Shown in pieces: positions 5,107 to 60,621 of a stretch of DNA of 64,000 bases. The stretch covers positions 955,606 to 1,019,605 of the forward strand of contig NZ_KE557320.1 in assembly GCF_000442315.1 (NCBI RefSeq). The letters are read 5' to 3'. Within the stretch, counting starts at the first letter, position 1. Each line of letters begins with the position of its first letter. The translations under genes and the position numbers were made by a program. The stretch is from Rubellimicrobium thermophilum DSM 16684 (GTDB taxonomy: Bacteria > Pseudomonadota > Alphaproteobacteria > Rhodobacterales > Rhodobacteraceae). The notes under the pieces were generated by a model that made no database searches, was not told the DNA's origin, and was given only the letters and a program-made list of their open reading frames with translations.

Positions 5107-6308
5107 ATGCCCCTCTTGTCGCACCGCATCACCCATATCACCGAGGCCGGATCGGACGGCTGGGAGATGTTCTATCGCGCGAAGGCAATGATCGCGCAGG
5201 GAATTCCCGTGGTGGAGCTCACCATCGGGGAACATGACATCAAGACCGATCCGGCCATCCTGGACGCCATGCATGCCGCAGCGCGGGCCGGTCATACGGG
5301 CTATGCCGCCATTCCCGGAATCCCCGCCCTGCGGGCAGCAGTGGCCGAGCGGGCCGAGCGGATGACAGGCGTGCCGACACGGCCCGAAAACGTCCTCATC
5401 ACGCCGGGAGGGCAGGCCGCCCTCTTCGCCGCCCATCAGCTGGTCGGCGATCCAGGGGATCCTGCGCTCTATGTCGATCCCTATTACGCAACCTATCCCG
5501 GCACGATCCGTGCCACGGGGCTGACGCCGGTGGCCGTGCGGGCCCGGGCCGAAGAGGGATTCGAACCCGGCGAGGCCGATCTTGCCGCGGCCGCCGCAGG
5601 CGGGGCGCGGTCGCTGCTGATCAACTCGCCCAACAACCCGACCGGCGTGGTCTATTCGCGCCGCACGCTCGAGGGCGTGGCGCGGGTGGCCGCGCGGCAC
5701 GATCTGTGGGTGATCTCGGACGAGGTCTATGATTCGCAGATCTGGGAAGGGGAATTCCTCTCCCCCCGTGCCATGCCGGGAATGATGGAGAGGACGCTTG
5801 TCGTCGGCTCCATGTCCAAGAGCCATGCCATGACCGGAAGCCGCCTCGGCTGGGTCATCGGGCCGGAGGAGGCGATCCTCGCGCTGTGGGATCTGTCCAC
5901 GGTGTCGAACTATGGCATTCCCGGTTTCATCCAGGATGCCGGGGTGTTCGCCCTCTCGCTCGGGCCCGGCTACGAGGCCCGGATCGCCGAGCCCTTCCGC
6001 CGCCGCCGCGCCATCACCCAGCGCCTGCTGGCCGGGCAGTCGGTGGTGCGGCTCGCCCCCCAGGGGGGCGGATGTATGCGATGCTGGACCTGCGCGCGAC
6101 AGGGCTGAGCGGTATCGCCTTTGCCGAGCGTCTGCTCGAGGCAGAGCATGTCGCCGTCATGCCGGGCGAGAGCTTCGGCCGCGCGGCGGCCGGGCATGTC
6201 CGGGTGGCGATGACCGTTGCCGACGAGGTCTATGAGGATGCGCTGGCGCGGCTCCTTCGCCTTGCCGGACAACTGGCCGAGCAGCGGGCCGCAGCAAAAG
6301 TCGGCTGA
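5107..6308 (+). CDS. class I/II pyridoxal-phosphate aminotransferase (frameshifted in this sequence)
   Basis: A fold-type I aminotransferase of about 400 residues. It shows the substrate and cofactor motifs NSPNNPTG near residue 180, SDEVYDSQIW near 210 and the Schiff-base lysine in GSMSKSHAMTGSRLGW near 240. The donor and acceptor cannot be fixed from sequence alone. The frame breaks in the run of six G at 6063-6068: upstream codons read APQGGG, and the family continues as MYAMLDLRATG in the next frame, through to the TGA at 6306-6308. One missing G restores it. I took the ATG at 5107 (MPLLSHRITHITEAG); ATGs at 5071 and 5095 are possible. It is divergent from cysS. Confidence 0.8.
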
Positions 6309-6340
6309 GCCAGGATTGAGGGGCCCGGATTGAGGGTCAC

Positions 6341-6371
6341 GGACCGGGAGGCGCCCGCAGACGCCCCCCGT
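6341..6371. terminator. possible shared terminator hairpin
   Basis: A GC-rich imperfect inverted repeat (GGGAGGCG paired with CGCCCCCC across a short loop) lies between the convergent aminotransferase and outer-membrane protein genes. There is no clear T tract, so the call is weak. Confidence 0.35.
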
Positions 6372-6403
6372 CCTTGTCCGGAATGTCTCCGCGGTCTGCG
6401 GTT

Positions 6404-7072
6404 TCAGAAGCGGAACGAGGCGCGGATGCCTGCCGTCGTCAGACCGGCATCGACGCCCGAGACGGCAGAGCCGCCGAACTGGTCCACATCGAATTCGTGG
6501 CGGAGAAGCTGGCCGCCCACGGTGAAGCGATCCGTGACGGCATAGTCGAAGCCCGCCCCGGCATACCAGCCGTCATAGGATTCCTCGATACCGGCAGAGG
6601 TGCCGGTGCCGCTCACATCGGCACGGGCCCAGCCGGCGGTGACATAGGGCAGGACGCGCCCCCCGTCATAGCCCACCCGCGCCCCGATACGTGCCACCGA
6701 ATCGAGCGTGCCGGTGACCGGCGTGGTGCCGTCGCCCAGATCAAGATCCGCCCAGTCATAAGCGGCCTCGACCCCCGCGACGATGCGGCCGAAATCCTGG
6801 TTGTAACCGGCATGCAGGCCGTAGAGTGTCCCCGAATAGGTTTCGTCGAAGCCCGATGCGTCTTCGGTCACGCCCACCTTGCCATAGGAGAGCTGCCCCC
6901 CGACATAAGCACCGGTCCAATCGGCAGAAGGGGCAACCGGGGCCACCGGAACCGGCGCCGGGACCGCGGGGGTGACAGCCGGCGGAGAGACGGGTTCGGC
7001 CAAACCGCCGGCAAAGGCGGGCACAGACAGGAGCGAGACGGCAGCAGCAGCCGCCGTGATGCGGATCGTCAT
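6404..7072 (-). CDS. outer-membrane beta-barrel (porin family) protein
   Basis: A 222-residue secreted protein. A classic signal peptide ([21 protein letters not shown]) is followed by a Pro/Ala/Val-rich linker of about 25 residues and then alternating amphipathic strands rich in Gly, Tyr and Asp ([36 protein letters not shown]), ending in a terminal phenylalanine (GIRASFRF) as required for BAM recognition. This is the eight-stranded OmpA-like/outer-membrane protein beta-barrel family. The start at 7072 has an AAGGAA ribosome site seven bases upstream. Ligand unknown; such proteins are often surface antigens or structural proteins. Confidence 0.85.
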
Positions 7073-7167
7073 GTCGACATTCCTTCTTCTTGCCGGAGGC
7101 AGGGGGCCTGAAGAGCACAACGGGCCACCTGCAACCTCGCCCCAAGCTAGGCAGTCGGGCAGGCGGT

Positions 7168-8303
7168 TCAATCAGTCGCACGAACTCGTGTTCGGGTCCG
7201 CGCCGGAGAGCGGAGCTCCGATGCCGTCCCTGCCGGATGACTGACGATGCCCCCGCCACGGCGGCCTGCACGCCGGTCGTGCCCGGGCAGGAGGTGGGCA
7301 GGCCGCGCAGCACCCGCACCGCCAGGAAGGCGAAGGCCTGGGCCTCGACCATGTCGCCATCCACACCCCAGGTCTCGACGGGTTCGACGGGACAGTCGAG
7401 GGCGGCGGCCAGCATCGCCATGAGGGTCCGGTTGTGGCGCCCCCGCCCCCCACCGAGGAGACGGGAAGGCGCAGCGGGCAGCATCTCCATCCCCCGCATG
7501 ACGGCGGCGGCGGCACAGGCCGTCAGGGTCGCCGCGGCGTCGGCATCGGAGAGGTCGGCCACCGCCCCGGCCAGCCAGGCGAAGGCATCGCGATCAAGCG
7601 ACTTGGGCGGCAGGCGGAAGAAATGCGGATTCGCCATCAGGCGTTCGACCACCGGCATGGCGACCTCTCCCTGCGCGGCCAGCGCGCCGCCGTCGTCCCG
7701 CGGAAGGCCGCGGCGACGCTGCATCAGATCGTCGATGGGCGCGTTGGCGGGACCGGTGTCGAAGGCGAGGAGCGCCCCCGCCTCTTCGGGCCGCCCGGCA
7801 CGGGGATCGAGCCAGGTGAGATTGCCTACCCCCCCCAGATTGAGGACGGCAACCGGCTCTGCCTCGCCTGCCCAGCGCGCCAGCGCCCAGTGATAGAAGG
7901 GGGCAAGCGGCGCCCCCTCGCCCCCCAGACGGACATCGGCGGAGCGGAAGTCCCAGACCACGGGCAGGCCGAGCCGTTCGGCCAGTCGCGCGCCATCGCC
8001 CGCCTGATGGGTGCCCCGTCCCCGCGGCTCATGCGCGAGGGTCTGGCCGTGAAAGCCGACGATCTCGGCCCCCGGGATGGTGGAGAGAAGTTCGGCATGG
8101 GCGTCCTCGACGATCCGGGCCGCGGCTTCGACCGCCTCTCCCGCCCAGTGGCCGAGCGCCGCACGCAGCACGCTGCGTTCGGCGTCCGAATAGGGGCGAT
8201 AGGCGGCGGGACCGAAGCCCTCGATCCGCTCGCCATCGGTGAGGAGAAGGGCCGCATCCACCCCATCGAGCGAGGTGCCCGACATCGCCCCGAGCGCGCG
8301 CAT
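7168..8303 (-). CDS. anmK: anhydro-N-acetylmuramic acid kinase (frameshifted near its end)
   Basis: Phosphorylates and hydrates 1,6-anhydro-MurNAc during cell-wall recycling. The family start [18 protein letters not shown], the [10 protein letters not shown] motif near residue 95, [10 protein letters not shown] and [11 protein letters not shown] near 170-200, and [14 protein letters not shown] near 290 are all present, followed by [17 protein letters not shown] and [11 protein letters not shown]. After that the frame slips at the run of five C at 7250-7254 (plus strand): adding one base gives a natural [10 protein letters not shown] ending and a stop at 7168, for about 378 residues. An alternative ATG at 8312 adds three residues. 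Divergent from tyrS. Confidence 0.85.
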
Positions 8304-8374
8304 CGCGGTCATCTTCCCCTTCCCGGCCTGCATCCCTATGACGATGCCCCGACACCCCCGAAGGGAGCAAGGCC

Positions 8375-9625
8375 ATGACCCGCACGCAGCCCAGGTCCGA
8401 TTTCCTGCAGGTGATGCTGGAGCGGGGCTATTACGCCGACTGCACGAATCTGGAGGGGCTCGATGCGGCCCTCTGCGCAGGCCCGGTGCCGGCCTATATC
8501 GGCTATGACGCAACCGCCGCCTCGCTGCATGTGGGGCATCTGCTCAACATCATGATGCTGCGCTGGCTCCAGAAGACGGGGCACAGGCCGATCACCCTGA
8601 TGGGGGGCGGCACGACCAAGGTCGGCGATCCCTCCTTCCGCTCCGAGGAACGGCCGCTGCTGACGCCAGAGCAGATCGACGCCAACATCGCCGGCATGAA
8701 GGGGGTCTTCGCGCGCTACCTGTCCTATGGCGAAGGGCCGACGGATGCGCTGATGCTCAACAACGCCGAATGGCTCGACGGGCTCAACTATCTCGACTTC
8801 CTGCGCGATGTGGGGCGGCATTTCAGCGTCAACCGGATGCTGTCCTTCGAGAGCGTGAAGACGCGGCTCGATCGCGAGCAGTCCCTCTCCTTCCTCGAGT
8901 TCAACTATATGATCCTGCAGGCCTATGACTTCGTCGAACTGCATCGGCGCCATGGTTGCCTGCTGCAGATGGGCGGCTCCGACCAGTGGGGCAACATCGT
9001 CTCGGGGATCGATCTTGCGCGGCGCGTGGACGGGGTGGAGCTCTACGGTCTGACCTCGCCGCTGCTGACCACCTCGGATGGGCGCAAGATGGGCAAGAGC
9101 GCCTCCGGCGCCGTGTGGCTGTCTGCGGCGATGCTCTCGCCCTATGGATTCTGGCAGTTCTGGCGCAACACCACGGATGCGGATGTGGGGCGCTTCCTCA
9201 AGCTCTATACCGAGCTGCCGGTCGCCGAATGCGAAAGGCTGGGTGCGCTGGGCGGCTCCGAGATCAACGCCGCCAAGATCATCCTGGCCAACGAGGTGAC
9301 GGCGCTGCTTCACGGGCGCGAAGCCGCCCAAGCGGCCGAACGCACCGCGCGCGAGGTGTTCGAGGCCGGCGGCGTGGGCGAAGAGCTGCCCACGATCATC
9401 GTCACCGCGGAACAGGCAGCCGCGGGCATCGCCAATACCGCGCTGTTCGTGCAGGCCGGCCTGGCCGCAAGCGGCAAGGAGGCGCGCCGTCTCCTTGCCG
9501 AAGGCGCGGCACGAATCAACGATATCGTCGTGACCGAACCGCGGCTGATGACGGTCGAGGAACTGCGCGGCGGGCTGAAGCTCTCGGCCGGGCGCAAGCG
9601 GCACGCCCTGGTTCGGCTGGAATGA
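8375..9625 (+). CDS. tyrS: tyrosine--tRNA ligase
   Basis: Charges tRNA-Tyr; its cognate tRNA gene appears at 39.6 kb. The 416-residue protein has the class I HVGH motif ([10 protein letters not shown] near residue 50), the tyrosine pocket ([20 protein letters not shown] near residue 200), the KMSKS variant KMGKS ([11 protein letters not shown] near 237) and a C-terminal S4 RNA-binding domain ([17 protein letters not shown]). Length is normal for the bacterial TyrRS-1 type. The ATG at 8375 follows a GGGAGCAAGG ribosome site. Confidence 0.95.
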
Positions 9626-9755: not shown

Positions 9756-10190
9756 TTGCCCCAGACTCTGATCGAACGCTGCGAAGCCCAGGGAATGCGG
9801 CTGACAGGTCAGCGCCGCATCATCGCCCGCGTCATCGAGGAGGCCGTGGACCACCCCGATGTCGAGGAGCTGCACGCCCGCGCCTCGCGCGTGGATCCGG
9901 GCATCTCGATCGCCACCGTCTATCGCACCGTGAAGCTCTTCGAGGAGGCGGGCCTGCTCGAACGGCACGAGTTCCGGGGCGAGGGTCTGTCCGGACGCGC
10001 CCGCTATGAGGATGCCGACCGCGATCATCACGACCATCTCATCGATGTCGCCACCGGCGAGGTCATCGAATTCGTGGATCCCGAGATCGAAGCGCTGCAA
10101 GAGCGCATCGCGGAACGGCTGGGCTATCGCCTCGTGGGGCACCGGCTGGAGCTTTACGGCGTGAAGGCCGATCGACAGGCCGACCCATGA
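9756..10190 (+). CDS. Fur-family metal-responsive regulator
   Basis: A 144-residue winged-helix repressor: MRLTGQRRIIARVIEE and ISIATVYRTVKLFEEAGLL form the DNA-binding half, and DRDHHDHLIDVATGEVIEF the metal-sensing half. The CxxC pairs of zinc-binding E. coli Fur are absent (the segment reads DHHDHLIDVATG), as in the alphaproteobacterial Fur/Mur branch, so iron or manganese sensing are both possible. I chose the TTG at 9756 because GGGAGG sits five bases before it and the resulting length fits the family; an ATG at 9702 has no such site. The stop overlaps the next start in ATGA, so the exporter gene is probably co-transcribed. Confidence 0.85.
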   Translation: MPQTLIERCEAQGMRLTGQRRIIARVIEEAVDHPDVEELHARASRVDPGISIATVYRTVKLFEEAGLLERHEFRGEGLSGRARYEDADRDHHDHLIDVATGEVIEFVDPEIEALQERIAERLGYRLVGHRLELYGVKADRQADP

Positions 10191-11093
10191 CCCCCAACCA
10201 GCGCGGCATCCTTCTGATGACGCTCGGCATGGGCGCCTTCGCCGTCGAGGACGCCTTCATCAAGGCCGCCACCACACGGCTTGTGCCGGGACAGATCCTG
10301 ATGATGCTCGGCCTTGCGGGGGCGATCGTCTTCGGTCTGGCGGCCCGCCGACGCGGACGGCGGATCTGGTCGCGCGAGGCGCTGCACTGGGCGGTCATGG
10401 GGCGCAATGCCGCAGAGATGATCGGCAGCGCGGCCTATGTCCTTGCTCTGGCCCTCGTGCCCCCTGACGCTGGTGACAGCCGTGTTCCAGGCGATCCCCC
10501 TGGCGGTGACGATGGGTGCGGCGCTGTTCCTGGGCGAATCCGTGGGCTGGCGACGCTGGGCGGCGATCCTTGTCGGCCTTGCGGGCGTGCTGATCATCAT
10601 CCGGCCCGGCGCGGAAGGGTTCGAGCCGGCCTCGCTCCTGGCGCTGGTCTCGGTCGTCGGTCTGGGCGCGCGCGACCTGTTCACGCGACGCATCCCGCAG
10701 GATCTCGACACGATGCAGTTGAGCGCCTGGGGATTCGTGGCCGTGGCGCTGATCGGGACGGTCCAGCTCCTGTCCACGGGCGGGGCGCTGATTCCGCAAG
10801 GGGCGGAATGGTGGTTCCTCGGCGGCGCCCTGGGGGCCGGCCTGGCCGCCTACTGGTGGCTGACCGAGGCCACGCGGGTGGGCGAACTGTCCGTCATCAT
10901 GCCCTTCCGCTATACTCGGCTGCTGTTCGCCCTGGTCATCGGGACGCTGGCCTTTGGCGAAAGACCGGATGCCTGGACGATCGTCGGTTCGGCCCTCGTC
11001 GTGGCCAGCGGCATCTACACGGTCCTGCGGGAGCGGGCCCGGGCCCGAGCCGCAAGGCGCGCAGCCCTTCCCGACGCGCCCCCGGCGCGCTAA
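10187..11093 (+). CDS. DMT/EamA-family transporter (frameshifted)
   Basis: A ten-helix drug/metabolite transporter of about 301 residues made of two EamA repeats. The first repeat starts MTPNQRGILLMTLGMGAFAVEDAFIKA; the second contains AAYWWLTEATRVGELSVIMP and FGERPDAWTIVGSALVVASG. The frame breaks at the run of five C at 10460-10464: removing one C gives the continuous LALVPLTLVTAVFQAIPLAV expected of the family. Substrate unknown; S-adenosylmethionine, amino acid and nucleoside exporters all occur in this family. Its ATGA overlap with the Fur-family gene suggests metal-linked expression. Confidence 0.8.
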
Positions 11094-13523: not shown

Positions 13524-16333
13524 TCAGATGCCCATCGACCACCAACCACGCTTCTTGGGCCTGGGCGCCTCTGCCGCAGCCGGTGCGGCAGCCGCTTCCG
13601 GGGGCAGCCGTCGCGGCATCGGAAGGCAGGGGCGTGCCCGCCGCCGGGACGGAGCCGGCGCCGGAGGCGGCCGGCCGGACATCAGCCGCGGAAGCCGGCT
13701 CAAGGGCAGTGGCAGGAAGGCCATCTCCCTCCACCGGCCCGGCTGCCGGGACCGCGAGAGGTGCATCTGCCGGGACCTGGGCCGGGCTTGCAGCGCTCCG
13801 GCCGCGCCGGGGCCGCTTCGGGGCTGCCGCTTTGGGGGCGGCCTTGGCTGCGGCTTCGGGTTCGGGGAGCGCCGCTGCCGCGCCTTCCGTCACCGCAGCC
13901 GGCACGGCGGACTTGCGGCTGCGACGCCTTGGCGTGGCCTGAGGCTGAGGCTCCTCCGAAGCCGTCGGGGCCGGGGACACCTCTTCCGGCGACGGAGAGT
14001 CGGCGGCGCGGCGGCGGACGCGGGTCCGGCGGCGGGGCTCCTCCTCGGCTGCAGGTCCGGCCAGAGGCGCCTCGGGCGGAGCGGGCTCGGCGACAGGGAG
14101 CGGCTCCTCTTGCCGGACCGCATGCGTCTCGGGCTCGCTGTCGGGCGCGGCCGCCACTTCCGCTGCAGCGTCCTCGGCCGTCTCCTCGTCCTCCTGGTCG
14201 GTCTGATCATTGAGAGCCATCGCCTCGGGCGACGCTTCGCCCTTCTCGCCCCGGCGGCGGCGGCGGCGGCGGCGCTTCTTGCGCGGGCGGTCCTCCTCGG
14301 AAGCCGCTTCGGGCGCAGGGGTCTCCTCGATGCGCTCCTCGACGCTCTCGCCCGCGGCTTCGGAGGCGGCCTCCTCCTCGGGCTGCTCGACATCCTCCGG
14401 CATCAGGGCGGGGGTCCCGGCCAGAACGATGGGACGGCTGTCCGGCACGGCACGGGTCGGAGTCTTGAACTTCTCGATGGAGAAATCCGGCGAGACCAGC
14501 CGCACATCGGCCTCGATCCGGACCGCCATGCCATAGCGGCGCTCGATGCCGGCGACATGCTCCCGCTTCTGGTTCATCAGATAGTTGACGATCCCCACCG
14601 GGGCGCGGACCAGCACTTCCTTGCTCCGCCCACGGACACCTTCCTCCTCGAGCTGACGAAGGATCGAGAGGGCAACGCTCTCGTCCGAGCGCAGCAGCCC
14701 CGTGCCATGGCAATGCGGGCAGGGCTGGGTCGTGGCCTCGAGCATGCCGGGGCGAAGCCTCTGGCGGCTCATCTCCAGCAGGCCAAAGCCCGAGATGCGT
14801 CCCACCTGGATGCGTGCCCGATCATCCTTGAGGCGCTCCTTCAGACGCTTCTCGACCGCGGCATTGTTGCGCCGCTCCTCCATGTCGATGAAGTCCACGA
14901 CGATCAGCCCCGCAAGGTCGCGCAAGCGGAGCTGGCGGGCGATCTCGTCGGCGGCCTCGAGATTGGTCTTGAGGGCGGTCTGCTCGATCGAGCCTTCCTT
15001 GGTGGCGCGGCCCGAGTTGACGTCGATGGCGACCAGCGCCTCGGTGACGCCGATCACGATGTAGCCGCCCGAAGGCAGCTGCACCACCGGATTGAACATC
15101 GAGGCGAGGAAGGATTCGACCTGATACCGCGCAAACAGGGGCAGCGGATCGCGGTAATGGATCACGTCCTGCACATGCGCAGGCATGATCATCTTCATGA
15201 AGTCGCGCGCGTTGCGATAGCCTTCCTCGCCCTCGACGATGATCTCTTCGATGTCGCTGGAATAGAGATCGCGGATGGCGCGCTTGATGATGTCGCCCTC
15301 CTCGTAGATCTTGGCCGGCGCAATGGACCGCAGCGTGAGCTCGCGGATCTGTTCCCACAGGCGCTGGAGATACTCGTAGTCCCTCTTGATCTCGGCCTTC
15401 GTGCGCTGGGCGCCGGCGGTCCGGATGATGAGGCCCGCCCCCTGCGGGACCTGGAGTTCGGCCGCGATCTCCTTGAGCTTCTTGCGGTCCTGCGGATTGG
15501 TGATCTTGCGCGAGATGCCGCCCCCGCGCGCCGTATTGGGCATGAGCACGCAGTAACGGCCGGCCAGCGAAAGATAGGTGGTCAGGGCTGCGCCCTTGTT
15601 GCCGCGCTCTTCCTTGACGACCTGGACCAGCATGATCTGCCGGACCTTGATCACCTCCTGGATCTTGTAGCGCCGCATCCGCGCAAGCTTGCGGGCCGGA
15701 CGCATCGAAAGGGGATCGTCTTCCTCGGCGACCGTCTCGATCGTGTCGTCCTTCTCGACCGTCTCGATCGCCCCGTCGTCATCGGCCCCGTTGCCGGCAC
15801 CGTCCTCGGGCGCCGCAACTGGCGCTTCGCGAACAGTGAGCATCGGCGAGAGACCCTCGGCCGCATCGCCCTCCTCCCGATCCGCCGCGGCATCGCTGCC
15901 CTCGGCTGACTCCTCCGACTCGATCCCGGCGGTCTCGACGGCATCCTTCCCCGGCACGGGCGAGGGGTCTTGCGCGGCGGCGGCCCCCGTCCTCAGGCGA
16001 TCCTGCCGCTCCGTTCTCGTCATCCTCTTCACGGCTGGCCTGCGCCAGGGCCTGTTCCTCGGCCAGAAGGGCCTGCCGGTCGGCCACGGGGATCTGGTAA
16101 TAGTCCGGGTGGATCTCGCTGAAGGCGAGGAAGCCGTGGCGATTGCCACCATAATCGACGAAGCAGGCCTGGAGCGACGGCTCGACCCGCGTCACCTTGG
16201 CAAGATAGATGTTTCCGGCAATCTGGCGCCTGCTTGCGCTTTCGAAATCGAAAGCCTCGACCTTGTTGCCGTCCACCACGACGACCCGGGTCTCCTCCGG
16301 ATGCGTGGCGTCGATGAGCATCTTTTTGGGCAT
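13524..16333 (-). CDS. rne: ribonuclease E (two frameshifts in this sequence)
   Basis: The endoribonuclease that initiates mRNA decay and rRNA processing, about 936 residues. The start MPKKMLIDATHPEETRV leads into an S1 domain (GNIYLAKVTRVEPSLQACFV) split by a long acidic insert, then the catalytic DNase I-like region (VAIDVNSGRATKEGS and LIVVDFIDMEERRN hold the two catalytic aspartates), the zinc-link CPHCHGTG, and an Arg/Ala/Pro-rich scaffold tail with a polyarginine patch, ending KKRGWWSMGI. The frame slips at the C run 15984-15988 (one base missing, inside the acidic insert) and at the G run 13600-13604 (one base extra). A very long open frame on the opposite strand is a GC-driven shadow. 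Confidence 0.92.
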
Positions 16334-16740
16334 GTATCCTTGCACGCCGATCCCCGCCCCGACCCGGACAGGGGCGGCCGCAGGGCGGTGTGTCCTTGAT
16401 GGGCGAGGCGGCGCGCGGATGACGACATACGGCCCTCTGAAGGCCGACATCCATCCCATTGCTCACGCGCGCACGGCATCGCGGGTTCGATCCTCGACGC
16501 GCCGGGCAGAACCCGTCGCGCCTGTTCAAATCCCCGGGCACGGCCGGAAACCGTCACGCGCCGAGGAGTCCGTCAGCCCCTGGGGGCCAGTCCAACCCGC
16601 ACGACCCGCCGGTCACGGGGACCGTTCGTGCGGGGCGGCGGAAATCCCTCCGGATCCCGGCAAGACGCGCGGACCCGTTGCCCTCCTTCATAGCGAAGGG
16701 GGACAACCGAAGACAATGGCCGATTTCCTCCGCCGCCGGA
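16334..16740. other. intergenic region, probable rne leader
   Basis: About 400 bases upstream of rne with no credible gene on either strand. It should hold the rne promoter and a long 5' UTR, which in other bacteria mediates RNase E autoregulation. Apart from the hairpin near its dctD-proximal end I can identify no specific element. Confidence 0.5.
16680..16702 (-). terminator. possible dctD terminator hairpin
   Basis: An imperfect inverted repeat (CCCTCCTTC paired with GAAGGGGG around ATAGC) lies about 40 bases beyond the dctD stop. No long T tract follows, so the call is moderate. Confidence 0.4.
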
Positions 16741-19895: not shown

Positions 19896-20560
19896 TCAGG
19901 CCGCCGCGAGTGCCGCAGTCAACCCGCGGAAAAGCGCCTGCCCGTCCGTGTTGCCGAGGGCAGGATCGGCTGCCCGTTCAGGATGCGGCATGAGCCCGAG
20001 GACGCGGCGATTGGCCGACAGGATGCCCGCGATGCCGCGTGCCGAACCGTTGACCTCCTCGGCATAGCGGAAGGCGATGCGCCCCTCTCCCTCCAGCCGG
20101 TCGAGCGTTCGGCATCGGCAAAGTAGTTCCCGTCATGATGGGCCACGGGCAGGCGGATCCTCTGCTGCCGTGCATAACCGCGGGTGAAGTCGCTCTCGCC
20201 CTCGACCGTGAGGGAAACGGTCCGGCAGACGAAGCGGAGCCCCGCATTGCGCATCAGGGCGCCGGGCAGAAGCCCCATCTCGAGCAGGATCTGGAAGCCG
20301 TTGCAGACACCGAGGACATAGCCCCCCCGCTCGGCATGGCGCCGCACCGCCGCGGCAATCGGCGAACGGGCCGCGATGGCCCCGCAGCGCAGATAGTCGC
20401 CAAAGGAGAAGCCGCCCGGAACGGCGACCAGATCGGTCCCCTCCGGCAGGCGATCCTCCCGATGCCAGACCATCGCGACATCGGCCCCCGCGGCACGCAG
20501 CGCAACGGCCATGTCGCGGTCGCAGTTGGAGCCCGGAAAGACGGTGACGGCAGCCTTCAT
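19896..20560 (-). CDS. purQ: phosphoribosylformylglycinamidine synthase subunit PurQ (frameshifted)
   Basis: The glutaminase subunit of FGAM synthase in purine synthesis. The 221-residue chain starts [21 protein letters not shown] and contains [14 protein letters not shown], the nucleophile cysteine in [15 protein letters not shown] and [13 protein letters not shown]; the catalytic MPHPERA follows only after a frame change. The break is at 20108-20109, where two T replace an expected three, and the correct frame runs to the TGA at 19896 ([11 protein letters not shown]). Its partners purS and purC lie 1.3 kb upstream, separated by an oppositely oriented Hint-domain gene. Confidence 0.88.
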
Positions 20561-20798
20561 GGCCCAGCCCCCCAGAGGTTCGATGCCTCATAGGCGGGCC
20601 CTCTTCGCCCCGTCAAGGCAGAGGCGTCCGGCGGCGAAATGCCGCGAGCCGCGCCATGGCACGATTCCGTCTCATCCATGCCGTTTTTGTGCTGCAGCCT
20701 GCACAGGTCAGCCGGACAGGCTGATTCGTCGGGCGCCCAAGGGCCCGGCCTTTGCAAGGAGAACCAGGGCCAGACCCACAGATCACGGAGAGGTAGAC

Positions 20799-26402: not shown

Positions 26403-27042
26403 CCGGATTTCCCGACGATACGGCCCTGACCGAAACGGGCCTTGCCCCCGAAGGGCGCGGGCGTGTCCTCGTCCTCGCCTGCGGGGCCCTGGCGCGCGAG
26501 ATCCTGGCCCTGCGCGACCTCAACGGCTGGTCGCACATGGATCTGCAATGCCTGCCCGCGATCCTCCACAACCACCCCGAGAGGATCGCCCCCGCCGTGG
26601 AGCCGCCGCGACCGAGGCCCGGACCCGCTACGGACAAATCTTCGTGGCCTATGCCGATTGCGGCACCGGAGGCCTCCTGCAGGCGGTGTGCGACAGGCTC
26701 GGCCTGGAGATGATCGAAGGGCCCCACTGCTACAGCTTCTTCGATGGCAACGAAGCCTTCGCAGCCCGCGGCGAGACGACGGCCTTCTACCTCACCGATT
26801 TCCTCGTGCGACAATTCGATGCCTTCGTCTGGAGACCGCTCGGCCTCGACCGGCATCCGGAGCTGCGCGATCTCTATTTCGGCAACTACGAAACGCTCGT
26901 CTATCTGGCGCAAACCGATGATGCGACGCTCGATGAGCGAGCCCGGCACTGCGCCGAACGGCTTGGCCTGCGCTATGAAAGACGACTGACAGGCTATGGC
27001 GATCTGGCCACGGCGCTGAAGGCCGCCCTCTCCCGCCCGTGA
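26399..27042 (+). CDS. DUF1638 family protein (frameshifted)
   Basis: A protein of about 214 residues of DUF1638. The family motifs VLVLACGALAREILAL, HMDLQCLPAILHNHPERI, VAYADCGTGG, GPHCYSFF and FYLTDFLVRQFDAFVW, with DLYFGNYE, are all visible. Cys/His content suggests a metal or cofactor site, and the consistent neighbour is the corrinoid gene, so a role in corrinoid-dependent methyl transfer or reactivation is inferred. One G is missing around 26602, shifting EAAATEARTRYGQI out of frame. No ATG or GTG lies near the true N-terminus; the CTG at 26399, overlapping the preceding stop, is my best estimate. Confidence 0.75.
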
Positions 27043-27129: not shown

Positions 27130-27504
27130 ATGGAAATCCGCCGCATCACGCCCGATTACGCCGTCACGCCCCAGATCGCCCCCGATGACGTGCCCGTCAT
27201 CGCCGAACAGGGGTTCCGCACGGTCATCTGCAACCGGCCCGACGCCGAAATCCCCACCGAGCTGTCCGCACAGGTCATCCGCGCGGCCGTCGAGTCGGCA
27301 GGGCTGCGATTTGTCGAAAACCCCGTCACCCATTCCACCATGACGCCCGAACGCATCGCCGCGCAGGCCGCCGCCATGGCCGAAGCGCCGGTGCTGGCCT
27401 ACTGCGCCTCGGGCACGCGATCCTCGGTCCTGTGGGCGCTGATGCAGGCAGGCCGCATGAAGACGGACGAGATCCTGGCCGCCACGGCACGGGGCCGGCT
27501 ATGA
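27130..27504 (+). CDS. DUF442/TIGR01244-family cysteine phosphatase-like protein
   Basis: A 124-residue protein with the phosphatase/rhodanese-like loop CASGTRSS (Cx5R) near residue 92, preceded by ITPDYAVTPQIAPDDVPVIAEQGF and ICNRPDAEIP. This is the beta-lactamase hydrolase-like protein family, linked in other Proteobacteria to sulfide and persulfide metabolism (Blh-type rhodanese partner). Single-domain form, as here, is common. It is 87 bases after the DUF1638 gene. Confidence 0.85.
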   Translation: MEIRRITPDYAVTPQIAPDDVPVIAEQGFRTVICNRPDAEIPTELSAQVIRAAVESAGLRFVENPVTHSTMTPERIAAQAAAMAEAPVLAYCASGTRSSVLWALMQAGRMKTDEILAATARGRL

Positions 27505-27605
27505 CCTCTCCGCCCTGCGACCAAGGCTCGAACAGGGCGGCTGATCCCCTCGGCCTGCCAGAGCGGCAACGCCCCCGCCGCCTCCGATCCGGCGGGACAG
27601 GACGC

Positions 27606-28529
27606 TCAGGGCAGCGCATCGGGCAACCTCATGGACAGGGGGCCGGCCGCATCCTCCCCCGGCACAGCGGACGGATCGGCCGCCAGCGCCCCTTCGATGC
27701 GGATCGCACGGCGCCCCCCCATCTGGCCGAGCCGCGCCGTGCCCAGCGCCACGCCGCCACCCCCTCGACCCGGACGGAGGCCGTCGAGACGCCGGGCAGC
27801 AGCAGCACCTGCCCCGGTTCCCATCCCTCCACCTCGCAAAGCGGGAGGGTCAGCCGATGCAGCACGGCGGACAGTGTCACCTCTGCCTCCAGAACGCGGG
27901 GGGCGAGGCTGGCGCCGGGCGCAGCATGGTCCGCCCGTTGCGGGGCCGGTGGAGCAGTCAGCAGCAGCGCAAGCAGGCCCTGACGCCCTCCCCCCCCCAC
28001 GATCGAGCGTCAGGCGCAGAAGACGACAGGGCCCCTCCGGCAGGGTGCCCTCAACCTCGCGCAGCGAGGCGAAATGCCCCCCGGACACGGCACCGGCGAT
28101 CCAGGATTCCAGCGGACCATCAGCCAGGGCCGTCCCCAGCTCGGCCAGAAAAGCCGTCGCAAAGGGAATGCACAGAAGAGCATCGGTGGCCGTCGGCGGG
28201 CGCGGCGGCGACGACCGCGGCAGCGCCGAACCGAGCAGGCGGGCCTCCAGCAGGGCGGAGCGCGCCTCTCCATCGAGGGCGATCAGGCCGCCCGCCGCCC
28301 CCCCGCGATCCACGCGCAGCAGCAGCGCCCCCTCCGGCAGAAGGGGAAGCAGCGTGTCCAGGCTTCCCTCCTCCTCCCCGATGCCGAGGACGGACAGGGC
28401 CAGGCCCGCGGCCCGCTCGGCCGCCCGCACGGTGGCGATGCGCAGCGCGCGCCGGGACGCGACCCCAGCCGGCCTGTCGCCGGATGGCCGCATCATGCGC
28501 CGCAGGACAGCCCCTGTCGAATCGGACAT
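27606..28529 (-). CDS. FliM/FliN-family flagellar switch-like protein (two compensating frameshifts)
   Basis: A protein of about 307 residues. The N-terminal half resembles the FliM middle domain (RALRIATVRAAERAAGLAL, LLCIPFATAFLAELGTALADGPL) and the C-terminal half is a SpoA domain (LPLCEVEGWEPGQVLLLPG, LGTARLGQMGGRRAIRIEG) typical of flagellar C-ring and type III secretion proteins. The frame is broken by an extra base in the nine-C run at 27990-27998 and a missing base in the five-C run at 27760-27764; in between the true frame reads GLLALLLTAPPAPQ. A CtrA-like site lies just upstream. It is shorter than enteric FliM and lacks a clear CheY-binding N-terminus. Confidence 0.75.
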   Translation of the reverse strand: MSDSTGAVLRRMMRPSGDRPAGVASRRALRIATVRAAERAAGLALSVLGIGEEEGSLDTLLPLLPEGALLLRVDRGGAAGGLIALDGEARSALLEARLLGSALPRSSPPRPPTATDALLCIPFATAFLAELGTALADGPLESWIAGAVSGGHFASLREVEGTLPEGPCRLLRLTLDRGGGRASGPACAAADCSTGPATGGPCCARRQPRPPRSGGRGDTVRRAASADPPALRGGGMGTGAGAAAARRLDGLRPGRGGGGVALGTARLGQMGGRRAIRIEGALAADPSAVPGEDAAGPLSMRLPDALP

Positions 28530-28574
28530 GACACCCCCTTTCCATCGGTCGGGGTCATGCTGGCAAAAAAATCG

Positions 28575-28590
28575 TTGATATTCCGTTAAC
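28575..28590. promoter_or_regulatory. CtrA-like binding site
   Basis: TTGA, seven bases, then TTAAC: close to the alphaproteobacterial CtrA consensus TTAA-N7-TTAAC with one mismatch, a rare AT-rich sequence here. It sits 46-61 bases upstream of the FliM-like ATG. CtrA control of motility genes is known in Rhodobacter and roseobacters. Confidence 0.5.
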
Positions 28591-28598
28591 GACGCATG

Positions 28599-31287
28599 CT
28601 ATTCGGCCGCCCGGGCAAGCCTCTGCGGCAGCACCACGCGAAAGGCCGCCCCGCCCATGCCGGGCAGATAGGTCACGGATCCGCCCAGCCTTTCCATCAC
28701 CTCGCGGCAGATGGCCAGGCCCAGCCCCGCCCCACCGGGCCCCGCCCGCCCCGGCGCAGAGGGCAGGCGGGCGAAGGATTCGAAGGCCAGATCGCGCTCG
28801 GCGGCCGGAATTCCGCGCCCGTTGTCGATGAAATCCACGACAATCTCTGTTCCCCGCAGACGCGCCACGATGCGCAGCTCCGGATCCGGTGCGTCGCAAT
28901 ACTTGCGCGCGTTGGAGGCCAGGTTGATGAACACCTGTGCCAGACGGTCGAGATCCGTGCAGACCGGGATCGCCTCGGCAGCCGGATCGCGCAGGACCCG
29001 CAGGGGGCCGGACGGCACCACCCCGGCCGCCGCCAGGGCCCGGTCGATGACATCGGACAGCAGCCCCTCGCGCGGGTCGAGCCGGATGCGCCCCAGCCGC
29101 AGGGATGGACAGATCCAGAAGCTCGTCGAGAAGCTGCGTGAGACGCTCGGCCTCGCCCTCGACGATGGCAGCGAAGCGGCGGACCTCCTCGGGGCGCAGG
29201 CCCTCCTCGCGCAGGATGGCCGAGAAGGACCGGATCGCGGTCATCGGCGTGCGCAACTCATGGCTGATGCGGCTGAGAAAGGCATCCTTCTGCTCGGCCA
29301 ACCGGGTCAGCTTGCCCAGCGCCTCGCGCAGGGCGCGGGCCGTGCGCTCCAGCTCGGCGGACTTGGCCTCGAGCCGGGCGGAATAATCCATGATTCGTTG
29401 CGCTTCGCCGGCGACGGCCATGAGGTCCTCGACGGTCACGGTCGCGCCCTTGGCGACCTGGCTGACGATGGCATGAGCGGCCGCGGATCCCACGGAGCCG
29501 GCGAGCTGGCGTTCCAGAGCGGCGACGAAAGCCGGCGTCACGTCAGGCAGATGCCCGGACTGACCCTGGGCCTCGGCCTCGCGGCGGAAGAAGTCGAGCG
29601 CGGCATCCTGCCCCAGAACGCGCCCCGCAATGACGAGCAGCTCCTCTGCCTCGCCGCCGCCGCGTCCCACGGCGCGCGGGGCGACCGCACTGTCGAAGAT
29701 GTTGACGAAGGCCTCGCCCTGGAGCCGCTCGACCGGCGACGGAAAGGTGACAAGAGAGACGCCCAGGAAGACCAGCGTGTTGAGCGCGAGCGACCACAGG
29801 ACGGAATGCAGCAGGGGGTCCATCCCCTCGAGCCCGAACAGCGCATGGGGGCGAAGCCAATCCAGCCCCCAGGGTCCGGCAGCATGGACCTCGGGGGGCA
29901 GGGCGCCGAAGGATGGCAGGAACAGCGTCCAGGCCCAGACGGCCGCGCCGACCAGCAGACCGGCCCCTGCACCGCGCGCAGTGGCTCCGCGCCAGACCAG
30001 CCCGCCGACCATGGCCGGCAGAATCTGGGCCACACCCGCAAAGGCGATCAGGCCGATGGCCGAAAGGGCCGCACCGGTCCCCGTCCAGCGGAAATAGAGA
30101 TAGCCCAGCGCCAGCACCCCCGCGACCGACAGCCGCCGCGACAGCAGCACCACACGACGCAGATCGCGTGAGCTCTGTTCTGCCGGGCGGCCGCGCAGGA
30201 ACAGGGGCGCCACGATGTGATTGGACACCATCGTCGAAAGGGCGATCGTCGCCACGATCACCATGGAGGTGGCGGAGGAAAACCCCCCGAGGAAGCTGAG
30301 CAGCGACAGGGCGACCTCTCCTTCGGCCAGGGGCAGGGTAAGGACGAAGAGATCCGGGTTGGAGCCGGCGGGCAGCCGATCGAGCCCCATCACGGCGATG
30401 GGCACGACGAACAGGCTCATGGCCAGGACATAGAGCGGGAAGGCCCAGCTTGCGACGGCAAGCTGGCGGTCATCCTCGTTCTCGACGACCATGACATGGA
30501 ACATCCGCGGCAATGTGACGAAGGCCGCCGCCGAGAGCAGGATCAGACCGGCCCAGCGCGCCCCCTCTCCCTGCCACAGCGGCACGGGAGAGGCGTCGAT
30601 CCGTTCGAGCGTGGCCGCCACACCGCCCGCAAGCCCCCAGACCACGAACACCCCGACGGCCAGCAGCGCCACGAGCTTGACCACCGCCTCTACGGCGATG
30701 GCCATGACGATGCCGTGATGGCGCTCGGACGGGTCAAGGTTGCGGGTGCCGAACAGCACGGTGAACAGGGCCAGGCCGGCCGCCGTCCAGATGGCGACAA
30801 GGCCCGCATCCTCGGCCATGCGCCCGCCTGCCATGCCCTGGGCGAAGGCGGCGAAGGACAGGCTGATCGACTGGAGCTGCAGCGCGATATAGGGCGTGAT
30901 TCCCGCCACTGCCATGAGGGTCACGATGGCGCCGATCGGCCCCGACTTGCCGAAACGCGCGGACAGCAGATCGGCGATCGATGTGATGCGCTGCGCCCGC
31001 CCGATCCGCACGAGGCGACGCAGCGTCCACCACCAGCCGATCATCACGAGCGAGGGGCCGAGATAGATCGTCAGGAATTCGAGCCCCGAGCGCGCCGCAT
31101 AGCCCACGGCGCCGTAGAAGGTCCAGGCCGTGCAGTAGATCGACAGCGACAGCGTGTAGACCAGCGGCGAGCGCAGCCAGCGGTCCCGTCCGCGGCGCGC
31201 GCCCCGTTCGGCCGCAAAGGCCACCGCAAAGAGCAGGGCAACATAGACGAGCGAAACCGCCACAAGCGTGTTGAAGGTCAGCGTCAT
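28599..31287 (-). CDS. sodium:solute symporter/histidine kinase hybrid (frameshifted)
   Basis: A sensor of about 896 residues whose first ~480 residues form an SSS-family transporter-like unit with 12-13 helices (MTLTFNTLVAVSLVYVALL; RSGLEFLTIYLGPSLVMIGW; SATSMVIVATIALSTMVSNH), followed by a linker helix and a HisKA domain with the phospho-histidine in SRISHELRTPMTAIRS near residue 675, N box NLASNARKY and G boxes DNGRGIP and GAGLGLAI. This is the CbrA/CrbS architecture, in which the transporter half senses or imports substrate. One extra base in the CCC (minus strand) at 29102-29104 shifts the frame after DELLDLSI. Its start overlaps the preceding small gene by ATGA. Confidence 0.88.
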
Positions 31288-31559
31288 AGCCCGTCCTCCG
31301 GAGCGTCCTCCGGCTGTCCGCCCGATCTGAGCAGGCGCGACAGGATCCCCGCCGCGAGGATCGGCCCGGCCCAGACGCCGAACAGATAGAGCAGAGCCCC
31401 CGCATTCGAGGGTGGCGTGCCCTGTCCCGACGCGGGCCAGAGCAGCGGCACGAGCAGCAGCGCCGCCCCGAGCACCGGCAGCAGGCAGGCGGCATCGCGC
31501 AGGCGCGTGCGACGGTAGCGGCGGCGATCGAGGAAGGGGGGCCTGCCGCGCCGCGCCAC
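31284..31559 (-). CDS. small membrane protein between response regulator and kinase
   Basis: A 91-residue protein starting at a GTG three bases after the response-regulator stop and overlapping the kinase start by ATGA. It has a basic N-terminus (MARRGRPPFLDRRRYRRTRLRD) and two predicted helices (about residues 25-42 and 56-75). Such a small helical partner is common beside SSS-type kinases in this group, but its role is unknown; it may stabilise the sensor. Confidence 0.75.
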   Translation of the reverse strand: MARRGRPPFLDRRRYRRTRLRDAACLLPVLGAALLLVPLLWPASGQGTPPSNAGALLYLFGVWAGPILAAGILSRLLRSGGQPEDAPEDGL

Positions 31560-44150: not shown

Positions 44151-45177
44151 TCAGGGCGGCACGAGGGTGCCGCGTTCGTGCAGGATGCAGGGCGCGCGTT
44201 CGGAGACCGGCCCTCCCCCCTCTCCGCCGATCCGGGCCATGAGGCGGGCCCAGGCGCGGCGCGCGATCTCCTCCACCGGTTGGGCCACGGCGGCGACGGG
44301 AGGATGCATGTGCGCCATCCAGTCCGCATCGTCGAAGCCGACAAAGGCCAGATCCCGCCCCGGCATCAGTCCGCGCCGCACCAGGGCCGACCAGCCCGAC
44401 AGGGCGATCAGGTTGGTCAGCGCAAAGACGGCGCGCGGGGCGGGCGCCCCCTCCAGATGCGCGGCGAAGGCGTGATCGGCGCTTTCCACGCTCCAGCCGC
44501 AGCGGAGCGGCTCGAGCGCGACGCCCGCAGCCTGCGCAGATGCCTCGGCCCCGTTCAGGCGTTCGGCGATGTTCGGCGCCGAATCGTCCGAGAAGGCCAG
44601 CAGGACCCGGTCATGGCCCAGATCGGCCAGGCGCCGGATCACCGCGGCCGCCGCGGCCCGCCCATCGGCCCCCACCTCGTCGGTGCCGTGCGGTCCCCCC
44701 CGTGCGGTCGGCCACCACGACCGGCAGGCCGAGCCCGTCCAGCGCCTGCGACGAAGCCGCCGGCACGACGATCAGCCCCGCCAGACGCCAGTCCATCAGG
44801 GCGAGGATCTCGCGCCGTTCGGCCTCCGGATCGTCATGGGTGGACGCGGCGGTGATCCGGTGCCCGGTCCGGGCCGCCTCGCGCTCGAGCGCGGAGAGAA
44901 GCGCGCCGAAGAAGGGGTTCTGGAAATCCGGCAGCACCACCCCGACCAGCCGCGATGTCGCCCGACGCAGATTGGCCGCCATCGCATCGGCGCGGTAGCC
45001 CAGAGCCTCGGCCGCCGCGAGCACGCGACGACCGATCTCGTCATCCTGGGGGCGGCGGCGGTTGAGGACATTCGAGGCGCAGCCGGTGGAGACCCCCGCC
45101 CGGCGGGCCACATCCCGCAGCGACGGACGCAAGGGCGCGCGCAGCGATGTCGCGATCTCTGCCCCCTTTCGGGCCAT
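44151..45177 (-). CDS. LacI-family transcriptional regulator (frameshifted)
   Basis: A repressor of about 341 residues. The N-terminal LacI helix-turn-helix (LRDVARRAGVSTGCASNVLN) is followed by a hinge (DDEIGRRVLAAAEALGY) and a periplasmic-binding-protein-like effector domain (VGVVLPDFQNPFFG, VGFDDADWMAHMHPPVAAV). An extra base in the seven-C run at 44695-44701 breaks the frame after VVVADRTGG. Start at 45177 with GGAGG eight bases upstream. It heads the sugar operon and is divergent from the dehydrogenase gene, so it probably responds to the transported sugar. Confidence 0.85.
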
Positions 45178-45205
45178 GGCCGGATCCTCCCCTTGCATCA
45201 CGCTA

Positions 45206-47336: not shown

Positions 47337-47438
47337 TTTGACGGGGCCTGCGGGGCATCCCGTCCCCTCTTCCGTTCCGATGCGGTTCCTCTAGGGTCGG
47401 TCCCTGTCATGGGAGGGCCAGCAAGGAGCGACAGGCCG

Positions 47439-48703
47439 ATGCAGTTCGACACGATGCAGGTCCATGCCGGGACCGCGCCGGATGCGGCGACGGGCGCGCG
47501 GCAGGTGCCGATCTATCAGTCCACCGCCTTCGTGTTCCGCGATGCGGACCATGCGGCGCGTCTCTCAACCTTCAGGAAGTGGGATACATCTATTCCCGCC
47601 TGACCAACCCCACGGTCATGGCGCTGGCCAACCGGATCGTCGCGCTCGAGGGGGGACAGGGCGGCTGGTGCTGCTCCTCGGGCCATGCCGCGCAGATCAT
47701 GGCCCTCTATCCCCTGATGGAGCCGGGGCGGAACATCGTCGCCTCCACGCGGCTCTATGGCGGGACCGTCACGCAGTTCACCCAGGTGTTCCGCAAGTTC
47801 GGCTGGCACACGAAATGGGTGGACATCGACGACGAGGCTGCGATCCGCGCCGCCATCGACGACGATACCCGCGCCGTCTTCTGCGAATCGATCTCCAACC
47901 CCGGCGGGCACATCACCGACCTGCCCATGGTCGCGCGGGTGGCGAATGCGGCCGGCGTGCCGCTGGTCGTGGACAACACCTCCGCCACCCCCTATCTGTG
48001 CCGGCCGATCGAACACGGCGCCACGATCGTCGTCCATTCCGTGACCAAGTATCTGACCGGCAATGGCACCGTCACGGGCGGAGCGGTCGTCGATTCGGGT
48101 CAGTTCGACTGGGGCGCAAGGGGCAAGTTCCCCTCGCTGACCGAACCCGAACCGGCCTATCACGGTCTGCGCTTCACCGAGGCCTTCGGGCCGATGGCCT
48201 ATACCTTCCACGGAATCGCGGTCGGGCTGCGTGACCTCGGCATGACCATGAACCCGCAGGGGGCGCATTATTCGCTTCTCGGCATCGAGACGCTGAGCCT
48301 GCGGATGGAAAAGCATGTCCGCAATGCGATGGCCGTCGCCCGCTGGCTCGAATCGGATGACCGCGTGGCCGAAGTCACCTATGCGGGGCTCGAATCCTCG
48401 CCCTGGTTCGCCCGCGCGGCACGCATCTGCCCCAAGGGCGCCGGCGCGATCTTCACGATCCGCCTCAAGGGCGGCTATGACGCCTGCGTCAGGCTCGTCA
48501 ACAACGTGAAACTGTTCAGCCATGTCGCCAATCTGGGCGACACGCGCAGCCTGATCATCCATTCGGCCTCGACCACGCATCGCCAGCTCACCGAGGAGCA
48601 GCAGCGCAAGGCAGGGGTTGCGCCCGATGTCGTGCGGCTGTCGATCGGGATCGAGGATCCCGCCGACATCATCGCCGATCTGGATCAGGCCCTGTCGGCC
48701 TGA
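47439..48703 (+). CDS. O-acetylhomoserine sulfhydrylase-like Cys/Met metabolism PLP enzyme (frameshifted)
   Basis: A protein of about 422 residues of the Cys/Met metabolism PLP family. [25 protein letters not shown] at the N-terminus, [40 protein letters not shown] and the PLP lysine in [12 protein letters not shown] near residue 205 identify it; the Asn/Ser-rich VDNTSATP fits MetY-type sulfhydrylases over cystathionine synthases. One T is missing at about 47565, shifting [17 protein letters not shown] out of frame. It would make homocysteine from O-acetylhomoserine and sulfide, feeding the split methionine synthase. Confidence 0.85.
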
Positions 48704-58709: not shown

Positions 58710-58711
58710 GA

Positions 58712-59998
58712 TCAGTTCCCCGTCCCGGTATTCATGTCCATGGCGGCGGGAGAAGCGGATCCGGTCTGCGGAGGCAGCGGAACCGAGCCCGTTGCCGCCA
58801 TGGCGGCAGCGCCGGCACCCTGCGGGGCCCGCATCAGACGATCCAGCGGAAGGAAGGGCACCACTCCCTGCCCGCCATTCCCCCCTGCCCCGGCCACGGC
58901 CGGATCGAGGATGATCTTGTCCACGTCACCCAGCACGCGCTCCATCGTCTCGATGTAGAGGCGTTCGCGCGTGATCTCCTCCGCATTGCGGTATTCGGCC
59001 AGGACGGCAGAAAACCGGCTGGCCTGGCCCAGGGCGTTGTTGACGGTCTGGGCACGGTAGGCCTCGGCCTGTTCGATGATCTGCGCGGCCTGACCGCGGC
59101 TTTCGGCCAGAACGCGGTTGGCATAGGCATCGGCCTGGCGCTGGAGCCGGTCGCGCTCCTGCTCGGCGGCCTGGACTGCGCGGAAAGCATCGATCACCTC
59201 GGCCGGCGGATCGGCCCGTTGCAGGTTCACGCGCAGGATGCGGATGCCGGACTGATAGGCATCGAGCGTCGCCTGGATCCGTTCGCGCGCGGTATCGGCG
59301 ATGATGCCGCGGTCGCGGTTCAGGATCGGCGCAAGGTTCGATGCGGCGATGATCTCGCGCATGACCGATTCGGACACGGCGCGCACCGTCAGTTCCGGAT
59401 CGCGGATGTTGAACAGCAGCTGCTGCGGATCCGAGACATTCCAGACCACCTGGAAGCCGATATCGACGATATTGGCATCGGTGGTCAGCATGAGGCCGGA
59501 ATTCTCGGCGCTGGTCGATGTGGTGGGGCTCGACGAGGCGCCGATGGATTCGGTCCGCTCGGAGGTGACATTGACCACGGTATAGGTCACGAGCGGCCAG
59601 GGCGCGAAGTTGAGGCCCGGCTGCCCGACTGCATAGGCCCGCCCCAGGAAGAGTTCGACGGACTGTTCCTCTGGCCGGACCGTGTAGAAGGACATGAAGG
59701 CCCACAGACCGACAAGCGCGAGACCGCCAAGCAGCATCGTGCCGCGCGTCACCTTCGGCCCGCCCCCGCCGCCGACCCCCCCGGAGGGTCTGGATGGAGC
59801 GCCGCGCCCCCCCATCAGGACACGAAGCTGCTCGCGCCCGCGATTCACCAGACGGTCGATATCCGGGATGGGAGGACCATCGCCGGGCCGGCGCAGCGGA
59901 GGTGGTCGCCGATCATCGGGACGATCATGGTCGTCATCGCCCCCCCCGCCATAACCGCCGCCGCGGCCGCCGCCGCCCCAAGGCCCCCCGTTCGCCAT
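58712..59998 (-). CDS. hflK: HflK, FtsH protease modulator
   Basis: A 428-residue partner of HflC. A Gly/Asp-rich N-terminus (GGPWGGGGRGGGYGG) precedes the membrane helix (MLLGGLALVGLWAFMSFYTV), the band-7 domain (SVELFLGRAYAVGQPGLNFAPWP) and a coiled coil with NLQRADPPAEVIDAFRAVQAAEQ. The order hflK-hflC-DUF2065-degP makes an envelope-quality-control unit. Confidence 0.93.
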   Translation of the reverse strand: MANGGPWGGGGRGGGYGGGGDDDHDRPDDRRPPPLRRPGDGPPIPDIDRLVNRGREQLRVLMGGRGAPSRPSGGVGGGGGPKVTRGTMLLGGLALVGLWAFMSFYTVRPEEQSVELFLGRAYAVGQPGLNFAPWPLVTYTVVNVTSERTESIGASSSPTTSTSAENSGLMLTTDANIVDIGFQVVWNVSDPQQLLFNIRDPELTVRAVSESVMREIIAASNLAPILNRDRGIIADTARERIQATLDAYQSGIRILRVNLQRADPPAEVIDAFRAVQAAEQERDRLQRQADAYANRVLAESRGQAAQIIEQAEAYRAQTVNNALGQASRFSAVLAEYRNAEEITRERLYIETMERVLGDVDKIILDPAVAGAGGNGGQGVVPFLPLDRLMRAPQGAGAAAMAATGSVPLPPQTGSASPAAMDMNTGTGN

Positions 59999-60074
59999 GC
60001 CTCTTCCCTCTTCTGTTCGCCCTCTAGCTGGTCATCCAGGGGGGAAAAGGCAAGAGCGAACCGGCAGCGGCCGG

Positions 60075-60621
60075 TCAGAGCAGGGCGCGCCCCGCCATAT
60101 GACGCATGGCCTGGGCGATCTCCTCGACCAGGGTTGCCGCCATGCTGCGCATGGCCATGATCTCCCAGGAATCGGGGCCGATCCGGGTCAGGCTGACGGC
60201 CATGTGGACCAGAAGGGTCCGGGCGGTCCGACCTTCGGGAAAGGCGGCAGGATCCAGATCAAGGGGGACGAAGCCGGGCGAGAACGTCCTGCGCGGCGGA
60301 TCCCTCGAGCACCGCCACGGCCAGGCCATCCCCCTGCTCGACGACCGAGGCATGGGCCGACAGACCCTCGGGCGGGGGGCGGCCCGCCAGGAGAAAGCGC
60401 CCCGGCGCGACCCAGATCATCCGCCCCTCGCCCCAGGCCAGAACCTGGCCGGGATCGGGGAGCATGGCACCGCCGAGAAGGCGCGACACCGCGGCCTCAT
60501 GACCGCGGAAGGGCGCGACGGACCAGGCCGGCCCGGGATCGACAGCCGACAGCCGCGCGCCGCCGATCGCCAACGGCAGGGACAGCCCCTCGAAGGGCGA
60601 TGTCGCGATGAGCCTAGCCAC
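60075..60621 (-). CDS. soxG: sarcosine oxidase gamma subunit (frameshifted)
   Basis: A small GcvT-like subunit of about 181 residues. LIATSPFEGLSLPLAIGG at the start, AWSVAPFRGHEAAVSRLL, VVEQGDGLAVAVLEGSAAQDVL, and the C-terminal TLLVHMAVSLTRIGPDSWEI match SoxG. An extra base at 60271-60272 breaks the frame; removing it gives ARLVPLDLDPAAFPEG. It overlaps the end of soxA by eight bases. Confidence 0.85.

Follow-up and report, generated by a model that had tools for sequence, protein, structure and literature searches.

One-base frame shifts in a Rubellimicrobium thermophilum genome assembly are very probably consensus errors

In this study, we examined a stretch of 64,000 nucleotides from the genome assembly of Rubellimicrobium thermophilum DSM 16684 (G000, contig C3, positions 955606-1019605; hereafter the window), in which a number of otherwise conserved genes are interrupted by shifts of one base. 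An initial annotation of this stretch had listed sixteen such shifts in thirteen genes and had attributed them to sequencing errors. Comparison with genomes of the same genus revised these figures to about 18 shifts in 14 genes, and it is very probable (roughly 0.95), judging from the sequence comparisons reported here, that they are consensus errors of the assembly and not real gene decay.

Frame shifts and broken genes in the window

The assembly has a size of 3.16 Mb in 10 contigs, one of which is 1.41 Mb long, with a completeness of 88.85% and a contamination of 0.15%; the content of guanine plus cytosine (GC) of the window is ~69%. Seven genomes of the same genus (G001-G007, 3.0-4.9 Mb) served as the comparison set, among which G005 (3.3 Mb) is the closest relative, with an identity of ~77% in nucleotide alignments. 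Three methods were used: offset steps of one base in nucleotide alignments to the relatives, the codon phase of mismatches (the phase test), which is independent of gene calls, and frameshift-aware alignment of protein to DNA. Genes were named from Pfam and NCBIfam matches of the window pieces or of the relatives' copies. A small codon-bias gene finder and a greedy choice of long open frames were abandoned because antisense shadow frames were picked in these GC-rich genomes, and so was our first blastn setting, which chained through unrelated DNA.

All three methods agreed on the presence of one-base frame shifts in the window (Table 1). The codon phase jumps in the window and not in the relatives, and in the alignment to homologous genes that the initial annotation had proposed, the genes of the relatives lack the shifts. 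Fifteen of its sixteen sites proved to be one-base shifts private to this sequence, and two of its positions, those in rne, were imprecise. By nucleotide alignment, the shifts at 20108, 26602 and 29103 were observed against six of six relatives, and at 47565 the flanks matched G001 in 14/15 and 15/15 residues in the frameshift-aware protein alignment. As had been stated, rne (6/6 for each shift), accB (4/4) and purQ (6/6 by nucleotides) are among the broken genes. On the other hand, the list was incomplete: it lacked the +1 shift at 27492 and, in the ScfR-type gene, one shift beyond the two assigned to it (both seen in 6/6), so that this gene has three in all.

The remaining site, at 7250, is probably a -1 shift at ~7256 in the last codons of anmK, at the C-terminal end of the protein. 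With a shift penalty of 12, the alignments gave -1 at 7256 in four of six rows, while G001 gave +1 and G007 none; with a penalty of 16, there were one -1 (G002), one +1 (G001) and four unbroken rows. The FliM/FliN-like gene does carry two breaks, as had been noted, which form a compensating pair (+1 at ~28000, annotated at 27990, and -1 at ~27760). Its frame is open throughout, yet ~77 codons are in the wrong register. By nucleotides, the 27760 site was supported in 5/5 and the 27990 site in 4/5, and each in 3/5 by protein; this gene is poorly conserved (~36% identity).

Table 1. Genes of the window that contain one-base frame shifts. A +1 shift means that the window is one base longer than the relatives, and -1 that it is one base shorter; positions in brackets after a shift are those of the initial annotation. 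Support is given as the number of frameshift-aware protein-alignment rows with the shift out of the rows reported, unless another method is named. ORF, open reading frame.
Gene	Position	Strand	Family match	Shift	Support
Class I/II aminotransferase	4981..6308	+	PF00155	-1 at ~6064-6070 (6063)	6/7, seventh row aligns only to 6035; codon phase with 6 relatives
anmK (anhydro-N-acetylmuramic acid kinase)	7160..8513, ends approximate	-	PF03702 in relatives	see text	see text
EamA-family transporter	10034..11093, start approximate	+	PF00892	+1 at 10457-10462 (10460)	5/6; the G006 row places +1 at 10420, in a different ORF
rne (ribonuclease E)	13536..16405	-	TIGR00757, PF10150	+1 placed at 15922-15955 (15984); +1 placed at 13605-13683 (13600), in a poorly conserved tail	see text
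purQ	19899..20572	-	NF002957/TIGR01737	-1 at 20108	5/6, sixth row used the wrong ORF
DUF1638 gene	26410..27042, start approximate	+	PF07796	-1 at 26602	6/6
TIGR01244 phosphatase/sulfurtransferase	27130..27541	+	TIGR01244, PF04273	+1 at 27492	4/4 by nucleotides; protein, see text
FliM/FliN-like gene	27606..28529	-	PF01052 in relatives	see text	see text
Sensor histidine kinase	28555..31557, start approximate	-	PF02518	+1 at 29102-29106	6/6
ScfR/RamB-type regulator	32004..33376	-	PF09856 over cut-off and NF038139 below cut-off in a relative's copy	-1 at 32365-32371; -1 at 32345 (32342); +1 at 32286-32292 (32295)	6/6 each
accB (biotin carboxyl carrier protein)	33919..34423	+	TIGR00531 over cut-off in a relative	+1 at 34258 (34255)	4/4 with accB ORFs of four relatives; 4/5 with less suitable ORFs; phase test with 5 relatives
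LacI-family regulator	44151..45201, start approximate	-	LacI-type models below cut-off in G005	+1 at 44694-44698 (44695)	1/1, G005 being the sole good match; a poor G004 row shows none
O-acetylhomoserine sulfhydrylase (MetY-type)	47403..48703	+	TIGR01326 over cut-off in a relative	-1 at 47565	6/6
soxG (sarcosine oxidase gamma-like)	60087..60620	-	TIGR01375 below its cut-off in a relative	+1 at 60273 (60271)	4/4

Several further candidates were set aside. An extra +1 was placed at 45241, which lies upstream of the part encoding the DNA-binding domain of the LacI-family protein, and was left out of the count; apparent breaks at 25595, 26407, 37342, 38652, 34428 and 45271 were rejected by inspection as intergenic or upstream of starts. 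The last two were phase-test calls and are still included among the 42 own calls against G005 given below.

With regard to gene order, the arrangement common to G001, G004, G005 and G006 ends near 27000 of the window and resumes ~31 kb further on in G004, and the regions at 27-38 kb and 40-63 kb map elsewhere in other relatives. Upstream of a gene for a protein with a coenzyme A-binding domain, the nucleotides at 38630-38660 are well conserved in five relatives, seemingly before the start codon; at the edge of this stretch the window is one base short compared with four of the five.

Break density and indispensable genes across the assembly

The phase test was then applied to the window, to other stretches of the assembly and to the relatives themselves. 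Its counts are calls per pair, so that a site detected against several relatives is counted several times, and calls in which the phase changes in both genomes (five in one comparison) were excluded. In 253 kb aligned between the window and six relatives, 42 breaks belonged to the window and 5 to its partners (without the open-frame filter, 45 and 12). For the 15 pairs of relatives, with both members counted, there were 24 breaks in 823 kb (85 unfiltered). Finally, sampled stretches of the assembly (890 kb or 28% of the genome, window included) were compared with ~1.0 Mb of G005, and the 279 kb aligned contained 42 breaks of this assembly and 6 of G005 (45 and 14 unfiltered); some of these six are probably gene edges, like the two positions named above. 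By the same test, the break density of this assembly is about seven to eleven times that of its relatives.

In pairwise form, the test is about half as sensitive as with several relatives. Against G005 and with the filter, nine of the 18 window sites were recovered; a tenth, 27492, was called and then filtered out, this true site being one of the three own calls that the filter removed in this comparison (together with eight of G005). The relatives, too, carry occasional errors or real breaks, as illustrated by G006, which has an apparent break of its own (~4051 of locus L045, opposite window position 61198) in a large gene at 60614-63532.

The breaks are not confined to the window. A first round that used less of G005 gave 7 in 42 kb for the window, close to the 18 in 102 kb for 400 kb of the same contig upstream of it. 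Contigs C3, C4, C5, C6 and C9 each had at least one own break. No break was detected on C1 and C8, where 6.6 and 1.9 kb were aligned, respectively; the samples of C7 and C10 did not align, and C2 was not sampled. The detected density was ~0.15 per aligned kb over all own samples and ~0.28 per kb in the window.

Genes known to be indispensable or nearly so, namely dnaE, rne, accB and an IMP dehydrogenase gene, are all affected. In dnaE (G000:C3:899521-902618), a change of frame inside the PHP domain separates the first ~70 residues from the rest; a second dnaE-family match was not found in this genome, and all seven relatives have one. The IMP dehydrogenase gene contains one shift, whereas rpoC, valS, secA and mutL each form one open frame. 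A -1 shift (~11049-11080 of locus L200) divides the mutS gene (G000:C5:234319-236900) between two frames; the phase test located this shift at 11049-11052, where there is no run, and the protein alignment at 11074, beside five G.

Nature of the shifts and competing explanations

To characterize the kind of change, 42 events were collected, consisting of 35 of the 42 phase-test calls against G005 and seven window sites from protein alignment; five calls with a break span of more than 12 bases were left out, as well as 34428 and 45271. The set comprises 22 insertions and 20 deletions. Twelve of the insertions and two of the deletions have a run of six or more no further than 8 bases away, compared with 2.4% of random positions; for runs of five or more nearby, the numbers are 16 and 5, and 8.1% of random positions. 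Thus, the initial statement that the shifts are mostly in homopolymers holds for insertions but only weakly for deletions.

Nonsense codons and, in the case of old shifts, relaxed constraint would be the signature of real decay. In the form of the nonsense test that we used, in which the strand was fixed by the GC content of codon positions and only well-constrained stretches were considered, 30,907 codons contained one stop of this genome and one of G005, each ~10-30 bases from a shift. Constraint at the broken flanks is nearly unchanged, the third-codon share of mismatches being 0.619 there and 0.635 in 741 background windows. Neither part of the decay signature was found in the strand-aware and third-codon tests.

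Consensus indel errors spread over the assembly, with false pseudogenes as their product, are the best-supported explanation, as the initial annotation had concluded. The one-base indels are private to this assembly and missing from close relatives, they occur on several contigs regardless of gene function (dnaE, rne, accB and IMP dehydrogenase included), insertions are strongly enriched at long G/C runs and deletions weakly at homopolymers, and nonsense codons are scarce. Among these arguments, it is the nonsense test and dnaE that carry the weight. The earlier argument that real decay would not have left both sides of each break conserved is insufficient, as very recent decay would also do so. 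The consensus would then have gained or lost a single base at sites scattered over the genome, the organism's own genes would be intact, and the cause would probably lie in base calling or consensus calling in a long-read assembly that received too little polishing. The completeness of 88.85% in 10 contigs fits this explanation because markers would be lost to frame shifts. Long reads or pyrosequencing had been proposed as the source; sequence alone cannot tell which technology was used, and the 10 contigs, including one of 1.41 Mb, suggest long reads.

Several observations weigh against consensus error. Half of the deletions (10/20) are away from any run of four or more, which a pure homopolymer artefact would not produce. 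In the aligned stretch that contains rpoC (16.6 kb), no break was counted, an outcome with a probability of ~0.07 if breaks occur at their mean rate (the open-frame filter had removed one own call from this stretch), and intact rpoC, valS, secA and mutL would also be expected from selection on real mutations. Beside the breaks, mismatches fall on third codon positions slightly less often than elsewhere (z about -2). Two other, looser forms of the nonsense test gave an excess of own stops as well. In the first, 15 stops were counted over 39,701 codons, and none over 41,479 codons of G005; three of the 15 were compared with window open reading frames, and this form was judged flawed and set aside since gene ends and upstream extensions had not been removed and since G005 is GC-richer and hence poorer in chance stops. 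The second counted 254 own stops against 98 in G005 and was judged flawed, being open to antisense frames.

One alternative is compatible with consensus error, namely that genuine variants account for a minority of the sites. The compensating pair of the FliM-like gene, which evolves fast and keeps an open frame, would be the most obvious example; however, all other sites show the same kinds of one-base differences, and we consider genuine variants among the sites rather unlikely.

Much less probable is a real hypermutator, in which mutS has become inactive, mismatch repair is lost and one-base slips pile up in G/C runs. The split of mutS, possibly beside five G, and the strong enrichment of insertions at long G/C runs are what such a strain would present, and it is the split that sustains this explanation. 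However, deletions are only weakly tied to runs, no nonsense codon was seen away from a shift in the 30,907 codons of the strand-aware test, and dnaE, rne and accB are broken too, which no mutator should survive, although rpoC, valS and secA are intact. Of the two repair genes, mutL is one open frame, and mutS is probably just one more victim of error: with 0.15-0.28 breaks in every kb, errors would strike about a third to half of genes as long as mutS, so a broken mutS is to be expected. It would take a true MutS-less strain caught in the middle of erosion at its G/C runs, with a consensus drawn from freshly mutated and possibly dying cells, and we regard this as very improbable.

Genuine gene decay, such as in a host-restricted or recently bottlenecked lineage, is more improbable still. 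The 3.16 Mb assembly is indeed smaller than six of the seven genomes of the genus, but its closest relative (3.3 Mb) has few breaks. Decay would also create nonsense codons, which are nearly absent in the strand-aware test, and it does not agree with the constraint at broken flanks, close to that of intact windows, or with the breakage of indispensable genes. Least credible of all is the restoration of frames by programmed ribosomal frameshifting or transcriptional slippage, which is conceivable at some sites because they are C or G runs, but which is contradicted by the lack of a conserved shift site in the same genes of the relatives, by shifts in both directions, by several sites without a run, by three shifts within ~85 bases of the ScfR-type gene, and by the lack of a common motif in the site contexts as viewed by eye, no motif search having been run.

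Implications and known parallels

Nothing new biologically emerges from these shifts; their value is a warning about the apparent gene losses of this genome. Its users risk listing false pseudogenes and inferring the loss of RNase E, AccB, PurQ, DnaE or MutS. Extrapolated from 0.15-0.28 breaks per kb, the whole assembly may hold some 470-890 breaks. Gene callers may also report, unflagged, long proteins that contain a false stretch, as in the histidine kinase and the FliM-like protein, because some shifted frames stay open at ~69% GC; such open shifted frames were observed at 28555-31854 and 27606-28529 of the window.

In comparison with known systems, the shifts resemble those of hypermutators deficient in mismatch repair in being one-base homopolymer slips accompanied by an apparently broken mutS. 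They differ in that indispensable genes are broken here and that the strand-aware test points to a lack of nonsense codons; in such hypermutators, substitutions should accompany the slips.

The closer likeness is to the false pseudogenes of long-read assemblies, in which one-base indels, many of them homopolymeric, split conserved genes and lower completeness. Indels, often homopolymeric, which fragment genes in long-read assemblies and reduce their completeness, are described in PMC9262707, PMC12007338, PMC8103633 and PMC6469205. In PMC12007338, correction is reported to have brought the share of pseudogenes from 23.3 down to 5.6%, and PMC8103633 gives the completeness of a nanopore genome as 84.99% before its frame shifts were corrected and 93.86% afterwards. 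The density in the present assembly (~0.15-0.28 per kb) is far lower than the value that PMC6469205 (2019) gives for nanopore contigs before polishing, 6 per kb, and in the published long-read cases correction or polishing reduces the indels.

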